DNA of 64,000 nucleotides from Ferrovibrio sp. MS7. GTDB lineage: Bacteria; Pseudomonadota; Alphaproteobacteria; Ferrovibrionales; Ferrovibrionaceae. The position numbers and the translations under genes were made by a program. The notes below the pieces were generated by a model that worked only from the letters and a program-made list of their open reading frames with translations, did not search any database and was not told where the DNA came from. Of the stretch, positions 52,013 through 61,873 are shown piece after piece; the first letter of the stretch is position 1, and the number at the start of each line of letters is the position of its first letter. The DNA is taken from NCBI RefSeq assembly GCF_038404985.1, contig NZ_JBBKBA010000001.1, positions 710,001-774,000 of the forward strand, written 5' to 3'.

Positions 52013-53743
52013 ATGACCAGGGCGGCAGGCAAAGTCGAGGGGGCTTATGGGCGGCTGAAGCTGCTCAGCGGCCTGGTGCTGTTCACCTTCCTCGGCACCC
52101 ATCTGCTCAACCACGCGCTCGGCCTGATCGCGCTCGATGCGGCGGAAGCCGGCGCGGTGTGGTTCAAGGCGCTGTGGCGCAACCCGCTCGGCACCCTGGT
52201 GCTTTACACGGCTTTCCTGCTGCATCCGCTGCTGGCGTTGTTCAACTGGCTGCGGCGCGGCCATTACCGCGGCCTGCCCTGGCAGGCCTGGACGCAATTG
52301 CTGCTCGGTCTCTGCCTGCCGCCGCTGGTCATCCTGCATATCGTCGGCACCCGTGGCCTGGCCGCCAGCCACGGTTTCAACGACAGCTATGCCGCGCTGA
52401 TGACCACTTTGTTCGTGCAGGATCCGCTGCTCGGCCTGCGCCAGAACCTGATGCTGCTGATCGCCTGGGGCCATGGCTGCATCGGCGTGTATTACTGGCT
52501 GCGGCTGAAGCCGGCCTTCGAGCGGCTATGGCCGCTGCTATTCGCCGCCGCTTTGCTGCTGCCGGCCTGCGCCATGCTCGGCTATCTCTCCATGGGCCGC
52601 GCCGTGCGCTTCATGCTGCGCGACCCGGACTGGTACGCGGCCTTCATCGACAGCCTGAATTATCCCGGCGAGGCGGCGGTGGCCGCTGCCTATCGCGTCG
52701 CCGAATGGGGCCAGATGGGTTCCGCCGGGCTGCTGCTCGCCGCCCTGCTTGGCCGTGTGCTGTGGGGGCTGATCCGCCGCCGCCATGGCGAAGTGACCCT
52801 GACCTATCCCGGTGGCCGCCATTGGCGCGGTAATGCCGGCAGCCTCAGCCTGCTGGAAGCCAGCCGCGCCATCGGCTTTCCTCATGCCGCCGTCTGCGGC
52901 GGCCAGGGCCGCTGCTCGACTTGTCGGGTAAAACTGTCTGGCCCCGGCATGGCAATGCTGCCGCCGCCATCCGACAGCGAGGCGGCGGTGCTGGAACGCA
53001 TCGCGGCACCGCCGGGCGTGCGGCTGGCCTGCCAGGTGACGCCACGCGGCGACCTTACCGTGGTGCCACTGCTGCCGGCCGGCGCCGGGCCGCGCGCCGC
53101 CTATGGCGGCGGCATGACCGCGCTGGCGCAGGGCTCGGAACGGCGCATCGCCATCCTGTTCTGCGACCTGCGCGGCTTCACGCAATTCTCCGAGGCGCGG
53201 CTGCCGTTCGACGTGGTGTTCGTGCTGAATCAGTATTTCAAGGCCATGGGCGAAGCGGTGGAAGCTTCCGGCGGCCGGCTCGACAAGTTCATCGGCGACG
53301 GCGTGATGGCTTTGTTCGGCCTCGAGAACACGCCGGCCGATGCCTGCCGCCAGGCGCTCGTCGCTGCCGATGCCATGGGCCGCGCCCTGGCGCAGTTGAA
53401 CGAGACGCTGCGCGCCTCGCTGGGGCAGGTGAACCGGGAGGCGCCGGAGCTTTTGCGTATCGGCATCGGCATCCATTGCGGCCGTGTCATCGTCGGCGAG
53501 ATGGGCCATGGCCGCGCCACCGGCCTGACCGCCGTGGGCGATGCGGTGAACACCGCCAGCCGGCTGGAAAGCGCCACCAAGGATTTCGCCGCCGAACTGG
53601 TGGTGTCGGCGGAAGTGACGCAGCGCGCCGGTCTCAGCCCGGCCGACCTTGAGGCCCAGGGCTGGCGCGAGGAAACCGTGACCTTGCGGGGCAAGAGCGA
53701 GGCTTTGCAGGTATTCGTGCGCGAGCGGCTGGCGCGGCAGTAA
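52013..53743 (+). CDS. Membrane cytochrome b-like / [2Fe-2S] ferredoxin / adenylate cyclase fusion
   Basis: A 576-residue class III adenylate cyclase with a redox-type membrane anchor. Six helices (about 17-38, 58-80, 92-113, 144-164, 172-194, 232-254) carry His30, His34, His71, His109 and His154, a succinate dehydrogenase cytochrome b-like pattern for heme b. A ferredoxin domain (about 258-352) has Cys295, Cys301, Cys304 and Cys340. The cyclase domain (about 376-570) has metal Asp385 (FCDLRGF) and Asp429 (KFIGDGVMALFG), adenine-selecting Lys425 and GDAVNTASRLE with the catalytic Asn and Arg. It probably makes cAMP in response to quinone or redox state; Sinorhizobium CyaC is a known heme relative (recollection). 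Confidence 0.93.
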   Translation: MTRAAGKVEGAYGRLKLLSGLVLFTFLGTHLLNHALGLIALDAAEAGAVWFKALWRNPLGTLVLYTAFLLHPLLALFNWLRRGHYRGLPWQAWTQLLLGLCLPPLVILHIVGTRGLAASHGFNDSYAALMTTLFVQDPLLGLRQNLMLLIAWGHGCIGVYYWLRLKPAFERLWPLLFAAALLLPACAMLGYLSMGRAVRFMLRDPDWYAAFIDSLNYPGEAAVAAAYRVAEWGQMGSAGLLLAALLGRVLWGLIRRRHGEVTLTYPGGRHWRGNAGSLSLLEASRAIGFPHAAVCGGQGRCSTCRVKLSGPGMAMLPPPSDSEAAVLERIAAPPGVRLACQVTPRGDLTVVPLLPAGAGPRAAYGGGMTALAQGSERRIAILFCDLRGFTQFSEARLPFDVVFVLNQYFKAMGEAVEASGGRLDKFIGDGVMALFGLENTPADACRQALVAADAMGRALAQLNETLRASLGQVNREAPELLRIGIGIHCGRVIVGEMGHGRATGLTAVGDAVNTASRLESATKDFAAELVVSAEVTQRAGLSPADLEAQGWREETVTLRGKSEALQVFVRERLARQ

Positions 53744-53788
53744 GCGGCGGGACTAGGCTCGGCTTATTGTCCAAGCCGGGAGAAGCCG

Positions 53789-54316
53789 ATGTCCCAGACC
53801 TTGAGTCACAGCAGCGACCATGACCTGCTGGATGAACTGCGCCGCCGCCGCCGGGCGCGTCGCCAGCATCTGCCGCTGGCGCCGGAGGAAACCAACGGCC
53901 TGCCCTCCGCCGCGCCGCGCAGCCTGGGCGAAAAGCTCGCCGATCTGGTGGCCGACCGTGTCGGTTCCTGGGGCTTCGTGGTCAGCCAGAGCCTGGTGCT
54001 GGCGCTCTGGATCATCGGCAATGCCTGGTTCGGCCGAGGCGCGTGGGATCCTTATCCCTTCATCCTGCTGAACCTGCTGCTGTCGTTCCAGGCCGCCTAC
54101 ACGGCGCCGATCATCATGATGAGCCAGAACCGCATGGCCGGGATCGACCGCCGCCGCGCCGAGCAGGATTACCAGGTGAATGTGAAGGCGGAACTGGAGA
54201 TCGAACTGCTGCACCAGAAGATCGACCTGCTGCGCGAGCAGGAGATCCTGGCGCTGACCAAGGCGGTGACGGCGCTGACAGCACAGCTTGAGACACGGTC
54301 GAGCGGCCCAGCCTGA
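53789..54316 (+). CDS. DUF1003 membrane protein
   Basis: A 175-residue protein. Two helices (about 67-87 WGFVVSQSLVLALWIIGNAW, and about 90-113 FILLNLLLSFQAAYTAPIIM) follow the conserved GEKLADLVADRVGSW. The C-terminal 55 residues form a coiled coil (LEIELLHQKIDLLREQEILA). Function unknown; often annotated cyclic-nucleotide-binding-like by context only. It lies 45 bp after the cyclase gene, so probably co-transcribed. Confidence 0.9.
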   Translation: MSQTLSHSSDHDLLDELRRRRRARRQHLPLAPEETNGLPSAAPRSLGEKLADLVADRVGSWGFVVSQSLVLALWIIGNAWFGRGAWDPYPFILLNLLLSFQAAYTAPIIMMSQNRMAGIDRRRAEQDYQVNVKAELEIELLHQKIDLLREQEILALTKAVTALTAQLETRSSGPA

Positions 54317-54687: not shown

Positions 54688-54819
54688 CCCGCAGCACCTG
54701 TAGGTACGTCAGCCAGCCACCCCGGCGCCGCATTGTCAGCGGCAACCCACGGTAGCCAGCCAGCCAAAGTCCGTTCCATTCGTCCGCCGGCTGGCGGGTC
54801 ATACCGGGGGTTTGTCCGT

Positions 54820-57042
54820 ATGCTGTCTTTCCGTCTTTCTCATGCCTCGCGCCGCCTCATGCTGCTGGCGCTGCTCGGCTCGACCGCGCTGGCGCCGCTG
54901 GCTGTGTATGCCCAGCAGGCGCAGCAGCAGCCGGCCCAACAGCAGCCTACCGGCGTGCCGACCGTGCTCGACACCGTGACCAGCGTCGGCGACCGCGTCG
55001 AGCGTCCGGTCGGCGAAAGCACCAGCACCATCACGGTGATCGACGAGGACAAGATCGACAAACAGAACCTGCACCGCATGCAGGACCTGTTCCGTGATGA
55101 ACCCGGCGTCAACGTGCTGAACGATCCGCGCCGCGCCGGCGCCGGCTCGTTCAATATCCGCGGCATCCAGGATAACCGCATCCTGATGCAGGTGGATGGC
55201 ACCCGCCTGCCGGACATGCCGGGCGGCATCCTGCTGCGCGGCGGCGGCTTCACGCCTTATACCCGCGACATGGTGGATTTCGACAGCCTGAAGCGCGTCG
55301 AGGTGCTGCGCGGCCCGGCCTCGGCCAGCTATGGCTCGGATGCGCTCGGCGGCGTGGTCAGCTACGTGACCAAGGACCCGACGGATTTCCTCAGCAATGG
55401 CCGCGACCTCTTCTACTCGCTCAAGCTCGGCTACGACACCATCGATTCGAGTTTCTCGCAGACCGGCACGGCGGCGACGCGCGTCGGCAACATGTCGATG
55501 CTCGGCATCTTCACCCATCGCGACGGCAGCGAGCTGGATTCCAAGGGCCGCATCAACGAGCAGGATTACCAGGGCAACAACCTGCTCGGCAAAATGGCCT
55601 GGGAAGGCGCTTCCAGCCGCTGGGTGCTGACCGGCGAATTCTTCCAGCGCGATGTCAACATCCCGAATATCGCCAACGAACTCACCGCAACGATCCGCTC
55701 CTCCTCGGCGCAGGACAGCACGGAACGCTGGCGCTTGTCGCTCGGCCAGACGCATTTCGATCCGATCGGCTTCGTCGATAAGTTCGACTGGAAGCTCTAC
55801 TACACCCAGTTCGAACGCGTCGATTACCGCGTGCAGACCCGCACCGGACCGCCGGTGCAGTTCCACAATTACCGCCAGACCAACGACCAGTGGATCGGCG
55901 GCGTGGAAACCCAGCTCACCAGCAATACCGACTGGTTCGGCGTGCAGAACACGCTGCTCTATGGCCTGTCGTTCAATGTCACCGGCACCGAGCGCCTGCG
56001 TGAATATGCCCGCATCAACGCCGCCACCGGGGCGCTGATCAGCAACACCACGGCCGATGGTGCGCTCACGCCCAGCCGCTACTTCCCGAATACGCTGACC
56101 ATGCAGGGCGGCCTTTTCGGCCAGGATGAGATCAAGCTCGGCAGCCTGACCATCACGCCCGGCCTGCGTGCCGATTATTACGACATGAACCCGATGCCCG
56201 ATGCGATCTACCGCATCAATCCATCGGTGCAGCAGCCGCGCGCCATCACCGAAATTGCGCTGTCGCCGAAGCTTGGCCTGAATTACGAGTTCAACAAGGT
56301 CTATTCGGTATTCGCGCAATATGCCCATGGCTTCCGCGCGCCACCCTACGACGATGCCAATACCGGCTTCCGTAACACGGTCGGCCCGATCTCGTATGAA
56401 TTCATCCCGAATCCGAACCTGGAGCCGGAAACCAGCCGGGGCGTGGAAATCGGCACGCGCGGCAAATTCGCCAACGGCTCGAGCTATCAGGTTTCGAGCT
56501 TCTATAACCGCTACAAGAATTTCATCGACATGGTGACGCTGGTGGAGCCGGTCGTCGGCACCACCGGCCAGTACCAGGCGCAGAATCTGAGCGAGGTGGA
56601 AATCTACGGCGCCGAGCTGCGTGGCGACTGGCGCTTCCTGCCGGAATGGGCGCTGAATGGCGGCATCGCCTATGCGGTGGGCGAGAATCTGCAATCCAAC
56701 GTGCCGATCAATTCGGTGGCGCCGCTTACCTTCACCGCTGGCCTTGGCTACGACACCATCGATGGCCTGTGGGGCGCGCGCCTCGATGCCAAGCATGTGT
56801 TCAAGCATGACCGCGTCACCGCCGCCAACCAGTACAAGACCAAGGCCTACACCACGCTCGATCTGTCGGCCTACTACAATCCGCTCGACTGGGTGACGAT
56901 CCGCGCCGGCATCTACAATCTGCTCGACAAATCCTATGTCAACTTCGCCGATGTGCAGGGCCTGACGCCGTCTGCCACCGTGCCGGGCGACTATTACCAG
57001 GCCGGCCGCTCAGCGGCGATCAACGTCACCATGCGGTGGTAA
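54820..57042 (+). CDS. TonB-dependent heme receptor
   Basis: A 740-residue outer-membrane receptor. The ATG at 54820 begins a signal peptide (LMLLALLGSTALAPLAVYAQ). A Gln/Pro linker, TonB box-like region and plug domain follow (TSVGDRVERPVGESTSTITV; GSFNIRGIQDNRILMQVDGT). The heme-receptor FRAP box is present as HGFRAPPYDDANTGF and the NPNL motif as NPNLEPETS. The C-terminus ends in RW. It imports heme across the outer membrane with the TonB encoded next. Confidence 0.93.
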   Translation: MLSFRLSHASRRLMLLALLGSTALAPLAVYAQQAQQQPAQQQPTGVPTVLDTVTSVGDRVERPVGESTSTITVIDEDKIDKQNLHRMQDLFRDEPGVNVLNDPRRAGAGSFNIRGIQDNRILMQVDGTRLPDMPGGILLRGGGFTPYTRDMVDFDSLKRVEVLRGPASASYGSDALGGVVSYVTKDPTDFLSNGRDLFYSLKLGYDTIDSSFSQTGTAATRVGNMSMLGIFTHRDGSELDSKGRINEQDYQGNNLLGKMAWEGASSRWVLTGEFFQRDVNIPNIANELTATIRSSSAQDSTERWRLSLGQTHFDPIGFVDKFDWKLYYTQFERVDYRVQTRTGPPVQFHNYRQTNDQWIGGVETQLTSNTDWFGVQNTLLYGLSFNVTGTERLREYARINAATGALISNTTADGALTPSRYFPNTLTMQGGLFGQDEIKLGSLTITPGLRADYYDMNPMPDAIYRINPSVQQPRAITEIALSPKLGLNYEFNKVYSVFAQYAHGFRAPPYDDANTGFRNTVGPISYEFIPNPNLEPETSRGVEIGTRGKFANGSSYQVSSFYNRYKNFIDMVTLVEPVVGTTGQYQAQNLSEVEIYGAELRGDWRFLPEWALNGGIAYAVGENLQSNVPINSVAPLTFTAGLGYDTIDGLWGARLDAKHVFKHDRVTAANQYKTKAYTTLDLSAYYNPLDWVTIRAGIYNLLDKSYVNFADVQGLTPSATVPGDYYQAGRSAAINVTMRW

Positions 57043-57107
57043 CGCGATGCGAAAGCGAAACCTGATGCGCATGCGAATGCCGATGTGACCCGAGGCGCCG
57101 CGCGGAG

Positions 57108-58073
57108 ATGCTTTTCCCACCAAACCCGCGGCTACCCTCCCCACCCGGCAGTGCGATGGCACTGCCGGGTGTCGCCATTCTGTCGGCAGCGCAGCCGCCG
57201 CTCTCTCACCACGCGCCGCTGTCGCAGCGCGGCATGCCGCTGCTCTGCTCGCTGGCCATGCATGGCCTGCTGTTCGCCGCCGCCCTGTGGCTCAGCCTGC
57301 CGAAACCGAGCCATGCGCCGCGCCCCGAACCCTTCATGACGGTGCAGTTCGTCGCCGCGCCACCCGCTCCCGTGGCGGTATCGGCTCCAGCGCAGGCGGT
57401 GGCACCGCCGCCACCAGTGCCTGAGCCGGAAACGGCGGTGCGTGAGGTGACGCCCGAGCCTGCTGTCGAGGCACCGCCGCCGTTGGTGACACAAAGTGCC
57501 GCCGACAGTGTGCCGCCGCTGCCCCCACGGATGGCGCCCCAGCCTGTGGTGAAACCCAAGCCGCAGCCGCGCGTTGCCGCCAGGCCGCCGGAAGCCAAGC
57601 CAGTCGAAACGAAAGCGGTGGAGACCAAGCCGGCCGAGACACCGCCAAGCGAAGTGGCCGCCGTGCCGCAGCCTGTGCCACAGCGCATGGAAGCCCCGCC
57701 AGCCATGGCTGCACCGGCTGCAACGGAAGCGCCCGTTGCCGCCCCTGCTGCGATTGCCGCTGCGGCGCCGGCCGAAACCCAGAGCAACGAACCGCCTGTG
57801 CTGCGCCATCCCGGTTTCCGCAACCGGCCGCAGCCGCCGGTCTATCCAGTGCGCGCACGCCAGATGGAACAGGAAGGCGTGTCCGTGGTGCGGGCCCTGA
57901 TCGACCCGGAAGGCCAGTCGCGCGAAGTGCGGCTATGGCGTTCGTCCGGCTACGAGATGCTTGACCAGGCGGCGCTCAATGCGGTGCGCGGCTGGGCCTT
58001 CAATGCTGCCCGCGTCGGCGACCGGCCGGTGCTGGCCTGGGTCGAGATACCGGTTCAATTCAAACTGCGCTGA
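57108..58073 (+). CDS. tonB: TonB-family energy transducer
   Basis: About 321 residues; the start is uncertain, as Met43 (57234) is just before the helix (CSLAMHGLLFAAALWLSL) and could be the true start. The middle is a long Pro/Ala/Glu/Lys spacer (for example KPVETKAVETKPAETPPSEV). The C-terminal domain has YPVRARQMEQEGVSVVRALI, then SGYEMLDQAALNAVRGWAF, the normal TonB fold. No exbB or exbD is in this operon. Its stop touches the next frame. Confidence 0.92.
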   Translation: MLFPPNPRLPSPPGSAMALPGVAILSAAQPPLSHHAPLSQRGMPLLCSLAMHGLLFAAALWLSLPKPSHAPRPEPFMTVQFVAAPPAPVAVSAPAQAVAPPPPVPEPETAVREVTPEPAVEAPPPLVTQSAADSVPPLPPRMAPQPVVKPKPQPRVAARPPEAKPVETKAVETKPAETPPSEVAAVPQPVPQRMEAPPAMAAPAATEAPVAAPAAIAAAAPAETQSNEPPVLRHPGFRNRPQPPVYPVRARQMEQEGVSVVRALIDPEGQSREVRLWRSSGYEMLDQAALNAVRGWAFNAARVGDRPVLAWVEIPVQFKLR

Positions 58074-58099
58074 TGCGTTTACCCACAGAGGAGCCCGCC

Positions 58100-59167
58100 A
58101 TGTCCGCCAGCCAAACTCTCAGCCAAGAATGGTCCGCCTTGCGCGAGGCCGAACCGGCCCTCCGCATCCGCGATGCCGCCCGCCGCCTCGGTGTTTCCGA
58201 AGCCGCCCTGCTTGCCACCCGCGTCGGCACGCCGGTCGCTGCAGGCGGCGTTGAGCGCCTCAAGGGTCCGTGGTCCGATATCATCGCTGCCGTGCCAGGC
58301 CTGGGCGACGTGATGGCGCTGACCCGCAACGACAGCGTGGTGCATGAGCGCCATGGCACTTATGGCGAGCTTGGCCTGCAGGGCCATGTCGGCCTGATCG
58401 TCGGCGAGGATATCGATCTGCGTATCTTCTTCGGCCCCTGGGCGCATGGCTTCGCCGTCGCCGAGGAAACCAAGGCCGGCCTGCGCCAGTCGCTGCAATT
58501 CTTCGATGCCCAGGGCAACGCGGTGCACAAGATCTACGCCACCAATCACACTGACGCGGCGGCTTTCGCCGCATTGGTGGCGCGCTTCCGCAACGACGAC
58601 CAGTCGAGCGATTTCGCCGCCCTGCCAGGCAAGGAACCGGAAGCGCCGCGCGCCGATGCCGAGATTGACATTGCCGCCTTGCGCGAAGGCTGGACCAACC
58701 TGCGCGACACCCATGATTTCTTCGGCCTGCTGCGCCAGCACAAGGTGGCGCGCGAGCAGGCTTTCCGCCTCGCCGGCCCGCGTTTCGCGCAGCGCCTTGG
58801 CAATGACGCAGCGCGCCGTATGCTGGAAGCCGCTGCCGCGCAGGAACTGCCGATCATGGTCTTCGTCGGCAATCACGGCATGATTCAGATCCATACCGGC
58901 CCGGTGAAGAAGCTGGTGCCAACGGGTCCGTGGTTCAACGTGCTGGATCCGCTGTTCAACCTGCATCTGCGCGAGGATGCCATCGCCTCCTCCTGGCTGG
59001 TGCGCAAGCCCAGCGTGGACGGCACCGTCACTTCGGTGGAGCTTTTCGATACCAAGGGCGAGCTGATCGTGTCCTTCTTCGGCAAGCGCAAGCCGGGCCA
59101 GCCGGAGCTGGAGCCGTGGCGCGACCTGGCGGAAGCCCTGGTCAATAGCGACAAGGCCGCTGCGTGA
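58100..59167 (+). CDS. hmuS: Cytoplasmic heme-utilisation protein HmuS/HemS
   Basis: A 355-residue protein with two homologous halves. GAGGAG precedes the ATG at 58100. The half-repeats are seen as FFGPWAHGFAVAEETKAG in the first and NLHLREDAIASSWLVRKPS in the second. The heme His lies in HGMIQIHTGPVKKL. It takes heme from the ABC importer and may degrade or store it. Its end overlaps the hmuT start. Confidence 0.94.
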   Translation: MSASQTLSQEWSALREAEPALRIRDAARRLGVSEAALLATRVGTPVAAGGVERLKGPWSDIIAAVPGLGDVMALTRNDSVVHERHGTYGELGLQGHVGLIVGEDIDLRIFFGPWAHGFAVAEETKAGLRQSLQFFDAQGNAVHKIYATNHTDAAAFAALVARFRNDDQSSDFAALPGKEPEAPRADAEIDIAALREGWTNLRDTHDFFGLLRQHKVAREQAFRLAGPRFAQRLGNDAARRMLEAAAAQELPIMVFVGNHGMIQIHTGPVKKLVPTGPWFNVLDPLFNLHLREDAIASSWLVRKPSVDGTVTSVELFDTKGELIVSFFGKRKPGQPELEPWRDLAEALVNSDKAAA

Positions 59168-60054
59168 TGCGGAGCCGGCTGAACCGCCGCGCGCTGCTGC
59201 GCGGCACGGCCGCCGCTGCGGCGGCTCTCGCACTGCCCGGCGCGGCCCATGCAGCGGCGCCGGAGCGACTGGTAGTGGCCGGCGGCGCCCTCACCGAGAT
59301 GGTCTACCGTCTCGGCGCGGAGAAATCGCTGGTCGGCGTCGATACCACCAGCCTGTATCCCAACGATACGTTCAAGCTGCCGAAGATCGGCTATTTCCGC
59401 CAGCTCAGCGCGGAAGGTATCCTGTCGCTCAACCCGTCGCTACTGCTGGTGACCGATCAGGCCGGGCCGCCGGCGGCGCTCGAGCGGCTGCGTGCCATCA
59501 AGCTGCCGCTCACGGTGATCCCGGAAACCCTGCATGTCGCCGATGTGCCGGAGAAGATGCGGCTGGTCGGCGCGGCGCTGGACCGCAAGGCCGAAGGCGA
59601 ACGCCAGGCCAGCCTGATCCGGGCCGAGATCGAGGCGGTGAATGCGGCGGTGGCCAGGCTGACAGCACGGCCGCGCGTGCTGTTCCTGATGAGCATCACC
59701 GATGGCCGGCTGCTGGCCGGCGGTGACATCACGGCGGCGGAAAGCATGATCCGCTTCGCCGGCGGGCGTAACGCCGTGGTCGGCTCGACTGGCTACAAGC
59801 CGATCTCCGCCGAGGCCGCCTTCGCCGCCGACCCGGATTACATCCTGCTCTCGGATCAGAGCCTGGAAGCCTTGGGCGGCATCGAGGCAATGCGCAAGCT
59901 GCCGCAGCTTAGCGGATTGAAGGCGTTGCGCGAGAACCGCGTCGTCACGCTCGATATGCTGTACCTGCTGGCGCTGGGGCCGCGCGTCGCCCATGCTGGC
60001 CGTGATCTGGCCGCCGCGCTGCATCCCGGCGCCACGCTGCCGCGTTTTGCATGA
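59167..60054 (+). CDS. hmuT: Heme ABC transporter periplasmic binding protein
   Basis: A 295-residue cluster III binding protein. The ATG at 59167 overlaps the hmuS stop (TGATG). The signal has NRRALLRGTAAAAAALALPG, a Tat-like twin Arg. Typical features: VAGGALTEMVYRLGAEKSLV, NPSLLLVTDQAGP, and a late SGLKALRENRVVTLDMLYLL. It delivers heme to HmuUV. Confidence 0.93.
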   Translation: MRSRLNRRALLRGTAAAAAALALPGAAHAAAPERLVVAGGALTEMVYRLGAEKSLVGVDTTSLYPNDTFKLPKIGYFRQLSAEGILSLNPSLLLVTDQAGPPAALERLRAIKLPLTVIPETLHVADVPEKMRLVGAALDRKAEGERQASLIRAEIEAVNAAVARLTARPRVLFLMSITDGRLLAGGDITAAESMIRFAGGRNAVVGSTGYKPISAEAAFAADPDYILLSDQSLEALGGIEAMRKLPQLSGLKALRENRVVTLDMLYLLALGPRVAHAGRDLAAALHPGATLPRFA

Positions 60055-61103
60055 GTGAACGGATGATGACGGATGCGCTGCCGCGCCGGTTGGCGTTCGC
60101 CTGGTCGGCCGGCTTGTTGCTGGCGGTGTTTCTGGCCTGCGTGCTGCTGGTCAGCCTGGCCGTCGGCCCGGTGCCGCTGAAGCTGGCCGAGGTGGTCCGC
60201 GCGCTGCTCGGCCTCGATGCCGATGCCCGCGCCGAAGCCATCGTATGGCATCTGCGTTTGCCGCGCAGCCTGATGGCCGGCCTGATCGGCGCGGCTTTGG
60301 GCATTGCCGGCGCGCTGATGCAGGGCCTGTTCCGCAACCCGATGGCCGATCCCGGCCTGGTCGGCGTCACCGGCGGCGCCGGCTTGAGCGCCGCTTCCGC
60401 CATTGTCTTCGCCGGCTGGCTCTATCCGGCGGCCTGGCAGCCGGTGATGCTGCCGGGGCTGGCCTTCGCTGGCGGCCTCGCCGTCACGCTGATGGTCTAT
60501 CGCTTCTCGCAGGTCGAAGGCCGCACCGCCATCACCATGCTGCTGCTCGCCGGCATCGCGCTGAATGCCATCGCCTCCTCCGGCATCGGCATGATGAGTT
60601 TCCTCTCCGATGACCGGCAATTGCGCGACATCACCTTCTGGCTGCTCGGCAGCGTGGCCGGCGCCACCTGGGGCAAGCTGATGCTGCTGGCACCTTTCGC
60701 GCTGCTGCCGATCCTGCTGGCGCCCTGGCTGGCGCGCGCGCTGGATGCCTTCAATCTCGGCGAACGCGAGGCGGCGCATCTCGGCTTCCCGATCGAGCGC
60801 GTCAAGAGCAGTGTCTGCTTCGCCGTGGCATTGGCTGCCGGCGGCGCCGTGGCCTTCAGCGGCATCATCGCCTTCATCGGCCTGGTGGTGCCGCATCTGG
60901 TGCGGCTGTGGCTCGGGCCGGGGCATCGCCGGCTGCTGCCCTGCTCGGCGCTGGCCGGCGCCAGCCTGCTGATTCTCGCCGATACAGTGGCGCGCACCAT
61001 CGCGGCGCCGGCGGAACTTCCTGTTGGCCTGCTCACCGCGCTGATCGGCGCGCCGTTCTTCCTCGCCCTGCTGCTGCGTCAGCGCAAGGAGCTGGCAGTA
61101 TGA
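60051..61103 (+). CDS. hmuU: Heme ABC transporter permease
   Basis: A 350-residue FecCD/BtuC-type permease with about ten helices. Markers: RLPRSLMAGLIGAALGIAGA, LMQGLFRNPMADPGLVGVTG and FIGLVVPHLVRLWLG. It overlaps hmuT and hmuV by ATGA. Confidence 0.95.
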   Translation: MSERMMTDALPRRLAFAWSAGLLLAVFLACVLLVSLAVGPVPLKLAEVVRALLGLDADARAEAIVWHLRLPRSLMAGLIGAALGIAGALMQGLFRNPMADPGLVGVTGGAGLSAASAIVFAGWLYPAAWQPVMLPGLAFAGGLAVTLMVYRFSQVEGRTAITMLLLAGIALNAIASSGIGMMSFLSDDRQLRDITFWLLGSVAGATWGKLMLLAPFALLPILLAPWLARALDAFNLGEREAAHLGFPIERVKSSVCFAVALAAGGAVAFSGIIAFIGLVVPHLVRLWLGPGHRRLLPCSALAGASLLILADTVARTIAAPAELPVGLLTALIGAPFFLALLLRQRKELAV

Positions 61104-61873
61104 TCGCGGTCGAGACTATCCAGGTACTGCGGCGCGGTGCTGAAATCCTGCGCGACATCTCGCTGCAACTGATTCCCGGCGAAGTGCTGGCCATCGTTGG
61201 CCCCAATGGCGCCGGCAAGTCAACGCTGTTGCAAGTGTTGTCCGGCGATCTGGTGCCGCAATCGGGCAGCGTGCGGCTTGAAGGCCGTGCGTTGCAGGAT
61301 TGGGCACCGCTGGCTTTGGCGCGGCGGCGCAGCGTGATGCCGCAGGCCGCCCGCCTCGGCTTTCCGCTGCCGGCGCGTGACGTGGTGGCTTTGGGTCGCC
61401 TGCCTTTCGAACGGCTCTATGATCGCGGCACTAACCAGGCGGCGGTGACGGCGGCCATCGGCGCCGCAGACATTGCGCATCTCGCGGCGCGTTCCTATGC
61501 CACGCTCTCGGGTGGCGAGCAGCAGCGCGTGCAGCTTGCCCGCGCCATGGCTCAGCTCGATCTTGCAGGCGGCGCGGCACCTTTGCTGCTGCTCGATGAG
61601 CCGACCGCCAGCCTAGACCTCGCCCATGCCCATGCCGTGCTGCGGCTGGCGAGAAGGCTGGCGGGCCAAGGTGTGGCGGTGGCCGCCGTGCTGCATGATC
61701 TCGGTCTGGCGCATGCCTATGCCGATCGCGTCGCGGTGTTGCAGCAGGGCCGGCTGCTGGCACTGGATGTGCCGGCGCGCGCGCTGACGCCGGAGATTCT
61801 AGCGCAGGCTTTCGCCGTCGATGCCGCCTTCTATGATGGCCACCTCGTCATCAAGGGGCCGTTGGCGGCGTAG
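61100..61873 (+). CDS. hmuV: Heme ABC transporter ATP-binding protein
   Basis: A 257-residue ATPase. Walker A GPNGAGKST, signature LSGGEQQRV, Walker B LLLLDEPTASLD. The C-terminal half LHDLGLAHAYADRVAVLQQG is typical of HmuV. Last gene of the heme operon; no terminator is clear. Confidence 0.96.
   Translation: MIAVETIQVLRRGAEILRDISLQLIPGEVLAIVGPNGAGKSTLLQVLSGDLVPQSGSVRLEGRALQDWAPLALARRRSVMPQAARLGFPLPARDVVALGRLPFERLYDRGTNQAAVTAAIGAADIAHLAARSYATLSGGEQQRVQLARAMAQLDLAGGAAPLLLLDEPTASLDLAHAHAVLRLARRLAGQGVAVAAVLHDLGLAHAYADRVAVLQQGRLLALDVPARALTPEILAQAFAVDAAFYDGHLVIKGPLAA

Follow-up and report, generated by a model that had tools for sequence, protein, structure and literature searches.

A CyaC-type class IIIb adenylate cyclase with a predicted diheme cytochrome b anchor and a fused ferredoxin

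Thirty class IIIb adenylate cyclases from alpha- and beta-proteobacteria have been assigned to an isolated cluster in which a ferredoxin is placed between the membrane and the catalytic domain (Beltz et al. 2016, eLife, PMC4821796). Their anchors are described there as succinate dehydrogenase/fumarate reductase (SDH/FRD) cytochrome b-like with four intramembrane histidines, and two hemes are predicted. Among such enzymes, S. meliloti CyaC is stated to be redox-regulated via a di-heme-B anchor in Schultz 2022 (PMC9552081), and the title of Wissig et al. 2019 (Mol. Microbiol. 112:16-28, doi 10.1111/mmi.14251) calls CyaC “quinone responsive”.

We analysed an open reading frame at positions 52013-53743 of the window, by which we mean the whole 64,000-nucleotide stretch of DNA under study (the frame, its parts and the DUF1003 gene described below are on the + strand). 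The frame is uninterrupted from its ATG to its stop codon and encodes a protein of 576 amino acids (P0001), which aligns over residues 14-569 with the CyaC-annotated product of S. meliloti Ak57 at 42% identity (E 1e-133) and, judged by sequence, is homologous to CyaC across all three of its parts. The S. meliloti CyaC protein was reportedly found to contain heme B and an Fe-S cluster and to respond to Q0/Q0H2, and mutation of a histidine is said to have led to the loss of both heme and activity. The original prediction had portrayed the window protein as a fusion of membrane helices, a ferredoxin and a class III cyclase, and this three-part organisation is borne out: Pfam identifies Fer2 at residues 274-344 (E 5e-6) and Guanylate_cyc at residues 376-568 (PF00211, E 1.7e-18), both above their curated cut-offs; the membrane part has no Pfam match at E ≤ 1. 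We conclude with high confidence that the protein belongs to the redox-regulated class IIIb adenylate cyclases of the CyaC type, with a diheme anchor and a ferredoxin that would control the formation of cAMP. Its best named relative is encoded by a Ferrovibrio metagenome-assembled genome (MAG; locus L038, 62% identity). Eight other places in the 4.58 Mb genome match the cyclase part, in no case with an alignment that extends into the membrane part.

The N-terminal part of the protein is a putative complex-II-type diheme cytochrome b anchor (residues 1-216, positions 52013-52660), which is followed by an extra last helix (residues 220-258, positions 52670-52786). AlphaFold models computed from 69 aligned family members contain the six helices that had been predicted, both in the whole protein (pLDDT 91.0, pTM 0.71) and in residues 1-258 alone (pLDDT 95.1, pTM 0.90). 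The anchor was folded separately because cyclases filled the fold search with the whole protein. When the anchor model was compared by VIA-align with 235 chains ranked by Foldseek, the top six entries were complex II cytochromes b with Z scores of 11.7-14.8, four of them being cytochrome b (FrdC) of the W. succinogenes quinol:fumarate reductase (QFR). The best entry, 1qlb_C from this organism, had a Z score of 14.8 and an rmsd of 3.6 over 205 aligned residues; other complex II entries were the D. gigas QFR (5xmj_C, Z 13.9) and the C. aurantiacus SDH (9lay_C, Z 11.7). After the top six, the scores drop to those of STEAP proteins (Z 6.2). In Foldseek itself, QFR cytochromes took ranks 1-5 with probabilities of 0.99-1.00, but with E values of 0.11-0.46. 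The anchor is thus predicted to fold like the diheme cytochrome b of fumarate reductase or succinate dehydrogenase, with one helix more: the aligned ranges of the top six entries stop at residues 195-217, and the modelled helix at residues 220-257 is therefore an addition.

The sequence of the anchor has diverged far from that of its structural counterparts, with just 13-17% identity to complex II cytochromes b in the structural alignments. The whole protein has a weak match to SDH cytochrome b with E 0.19. The NCBIfam model sdhC_b558 matches the anchor with E 0.061 at 12.9 bits, below the curated cut-off of 96 bits; it is found at E ≤ 1 in 35 of the 69 members, with a best value of 5.4e-4. 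A search of the PDB sequences with the membrane profile alone gave no match at E ≤ 10, and Pfam searches of 25 membrane parts gave weak matches to one to three members each, which included DUF7865 (E 0.0053, one member) and Sdh_cyt (best E 0.53, two members). A search of 100 genomes of one phylum with sdhC_b558 gave one weak match. For a direct comparison, SdhC b558 sequences (2, then 15) were taken from a genome labelled Nitrospinota and others of its phylum. Profile-profile alignment of the anchor with this set was local only (E 0.005, probability 6-7%) and ambiguous in register, as one run aligned helices 1-2 of the anchor to helices 1-2 of SdhC and another run to helices 3-4; for this reason, no pairing of ligands was drawn from it. 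With sequence searches null or weak, it is chiefly the predicted fold, together with the weak NCBIfam matches, that supports the relation to complex II.

The distribution of charges in the 69 members favours a topology in which both ends of the anchor are cytoplasmic (N-in/C-in). The N-terminus, loop 2-3, loop 4-5 and the C-terminus carry on average 3.9, 3.8, 2.2 and 4.1 lysines and arginines and 0.8, 0.1, 0.1 and 0.6 aspartates and glutamates, respectively, whereas in loops 1-2, 3-4 and 5-6 the positive residues (2.1, 2.2 and 2.9) are set against 1.9, 2.9 and 4.5 negative ones.

The heme-type histidines of the original prediction correspond to four helix histidines, H30, H71, H109 and H154, and the four cysteines that it assigned to the [2Fe-2S] ferredoxin (C295, C301, C304 and C340) were placed correctly. 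All eight residues are identical in a set of 110 sequences composed of the window protein, 29 loci from a genome sample and 80 further loci, in which H34 is found in 105. Because the 80 loci had been seeded partly on the ferredoxin motif, we added 55 members: 44 from a search with the membrane profile and 11 weak or partial matches, all of which pass that profile. Every one of the 55 has all eight ligands. Removal of the 8 of 165 members that were at least 95% identical to another left a non-redundant set in which the eight ligands are present in 157 of 157 members and H34 in 148. Loci L150-L153, which show no match to the membrane profile at E ≤ 1e-20, were left out of the member set. In the membrane part, no alignment column is invariant apart from those of the four histidines, G158 and G190. 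Within the predicted complex II fold, the four invariant helix histidines are a diheme signature. By analogy, H30 and H109 would ligate a heme on the periplasmic side and H71 and H154 a heme on the cytoplasmic side, a pairing that we assume to carry over from complex II.

The family is common among Alphaproteobacteria, and 78 of the 289 sampled genomes contain a match at E ≤ 1e-40. Five members (L072, L079, L091, L097 and L110) lie on MAG contigs labelled Nitrospinota/Nitrospinae or Rokuibacteriota, which reflects either real transfer or a binning error. Reyranella sp. CPCC 100927 (L068) has two cyclase frames of this family, a few kb apart.

The ferredoxin domain (residues 274-344, positions 52832-53044) matches PF00111. 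Its sequence relatives are adrenodoxin, putidaredoxin and the NqrF ferredoxins, and the NCBIfam models that match it are nqrF, AcsV and PRK05713. Adrenodoxin- and NqrF-type ferredoxins have, as a rule, low potentials. The idea that this iron-sulfur module came from succinate dehydrogenase finds no support, as no SdhB-type model in Pfam or NCBIfam matches the window protein at E ≤ 1; Fer2 is the sole Pfam match in this region at that threshold. Ferredoxin-cyclase combinations also occur outside the membrane family. L152:1496-2506 encodes a soluble Fer2-cyclase protein of 337 amino acids, and L153:1208-2719 encodes a protein of 504 amino acids that has no membrane anchor and combines two CDGSH stretches with Fer2, cyclase and Rieske domains; both genomes encode the membrane form too. 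A Hymenobacter plasmid gene has a match confined to residues 279-540.

The cyclase domain (residues 376-568, positions 53138-53716) agrees with the original assignment to class III. Apart from the Pfam match, it contains a complete catalytic set, D385, K425, D429, T506, N513 and R517, and may be active. We take D385 and D429 to bind metal, K425 and T506 to contact the substrate, and N513 and R517 to stabilise the transition state, and we assume that the substrate pair of a lysine and a threonine is the mark of class IIIb. The nearest solved fold is that of the Spirulina cyclase CyaC (1wc3, Z 26.0), which shares its name and its catalytic domain with the Rhizobium CyaC.

The catalytic residues are less uniform across the family than the redox ligands. 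K425 is replaced by glutamine in 30 of the 157 members and N513 by histidine in 6, as aligned by MAFFT; other substitutions, to serine, alanine, glycine, methionine and others, are single or few cases each. The membrane and ferredoxin parts of 156 members were used for a quick tree (LG model, no mixture), which leaves out L155, a frame that ends some 119 bases before its contig does. In 39 of these members the six residues differ from DKDTNR, which requires at least nine changes on the tree, and the metal and transition-state residues are altered in 10, with at least six changes; both counts include L149. The latter gene (L149:2474-3613, on a 4.19 Mb contig) encodes 380 amino acids comprising the membrane part and the ferredoxin with all eight ligands, and is devoid of the cyclase. 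The long frame that comes next on the same strand encodes an MscS-type channel. The eight redox ligands are likewise intact in L145, L177, L178 and L190, which have altered substrate or transition-state residues, and in the lysine-to-glutamine group (e.g. L128-L134). With cyclase residues non-canonical or missing in a part of the family, cAMP output may therefore not be family-wide. What this analysis adds is the contrast between fixed redox ligands and drifting cyclase residues, from which the redox module looks like the part under the stricter constraint, and which bears on what the module was originally selected for.

The same contrast speaks for an alternative in which the protein primarily transfers electrons, e.g. 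as a ferredoxin:quinone oxidoreductase that receives them from the cytosol, and has the cyclase as a secondary reporter open to alteration or loss. The member that retains the membrane part, the four histidines and the four cysteines without a cyclase fits this explanation, and so does the low-potential type of the ferredoxin, which would suit the entry of electrons from the cytosol. However, there is one clear cyclase-less member among 157, the metal-binding aspartate pair is invariant in 155 members (all except L149 and L155), and no reductase is conspicuous among the recurrent neighbours, a minority of which were identified. We consider electron transfer as the primary role to be unlikely. 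A broader formulation, to which we give a similarly small chance, is that the conserved function is that of a diheme-ferredoxin electron-transfer module with the cyclase as one of its possible read-outs, retuned or degenerate in some members and missing in one. It is equally doubtful that the exchanges of lysine for glutamine and asparagine for histidine retune the read-out towards another nucleotide or product.

A second alternative, in which the hemes are gas sensors (for O2, NO or CO) and exchange no electrons with quinone, is very improbable. Heme proteins can in principle bind gases, and this general property is all that speaks for it, as no data presented here point that way. Since the four bis-histidine ligands of the putative diheme site are all invariant, an open coordination site is not to be expected, and the anchor is predicted to fold like a complex II cytochrome b. 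Furthermore, the CyaC paper names quinone in its title as the effector to which the enzyme is responsive.

Redox-regulated cAMP synthesis is the preferred explanation. Two hemes and an iron-sulfur cluster probably allow the membrane protein to follow the redox state of respiration, with cyclic AMP as its output. In the model that we propose, electrons would pass between the quinone pool and the two b hemes, the chain would re-enter the cytoplasm through the last helix, and the cytoplasmic [2Fe-2S] ferredoxin would relay or sense the redox state and tune the activity of the dimeric cyclase. The ferredoxin would take part in signal transfer in this model, and cAMP would report the respiratory redox balance. 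By analogy with CyaC, we expect the window protein to have a di-heme-B anchor and to be regulated by redox. The anchor and the redox signal to the cyclase in the original prediction are thus retained and refined to a diheme anchor as in the S. meliloti enzyme; its SDH-derived iron-sulfur module is not. Eight places in the genome encode cNMP-binding domains and are possible receivers of cAMP.

Downstream of the cyclase gene, a DUF1003 membrane protein (positions 53789-54316, E 6.6e-38) is followed by a heme-uptake cluster (window positions 54733-61870) that encodes a TonB receptor, TonB, HemS/ChuX, a periplasmic binding protein, a FecCD permease and an ABC ATPase. The DUF1003 protein had been proposed as a partner of the cyclase, and its gene lies on the same strand, 45 bases past the cyclase stop codon, but the two genes adjoin in 2 of 81 loci only, the window and the Ferrovibrio MAG, while no DUF1003 gene was found within 8 kb of the remaining 79 (72 of which have more than 1 kb of downstream sequence) or in the flanking sequence of L009, a locus from the same genus with short flanks of about 1.4 kb, so that a conserved partnership is rejected and an obligate one is hardly credible. 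Near 19 of the 81 loci (e.g. L041, L059, L067 and L082), a gene encodes a small TPR protein that begins with a signal-like stretch and has a pair of cysteines at its C-terminus; the gene occurs in several orientations and, in all cases but one, within about 200 bases of the cyclase. A profile of this protein matched none of the frames in the window.

Three described systems can be set beside the window protein. Complex II cytochromes b (1qlb_C, 5xmj_C and 9lay_C) have the fold and the four helix histidines in common with its anchor, to which the window protein adds the last helix, the fused ferredoxin and the cyclase. Cluster 1 of Beltz et al., exemplified by R. palustris Q132R4, is alike in the order of anchor with four histidines, ferredoxin and class IIIb cyclase; compared by description, the accessible text of PMC4821796 gives no difference from the window protein. 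The closest parallel is S. meliloti CyaC, whose Ak57 version shares the order of six transmembrane helices, ferredoxin and class III cyclase, as well as the four histidines, the four cysteines and the six catalytic residues. From its name, species and architecture, we infer that the cyaC gene on pSymB of Ak57 is the gene of Wissig et al. 2019. The design and its redox control have thus already been published and are not new; as far as our searches show, the window protein is an unstudied member of the family. S. meliloti belongs to the Hyphomicrobiales and Ferrovibrio, the nearest named relative of the window, to the Rhodospirillales, and the genomic settings differ: cyaC of Ak57 has a LysR gene on one side and IS4 transposases on the other, whereas the window gene precedes the DUF1003 gene and the heme-uptake cluster. 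The window gene is a non-rhizobial representative of a family that, by linking respiratory redox state to cAMP, provides one of the rare examples of a cyclase whose membrane anchor is known to function as a receptor.
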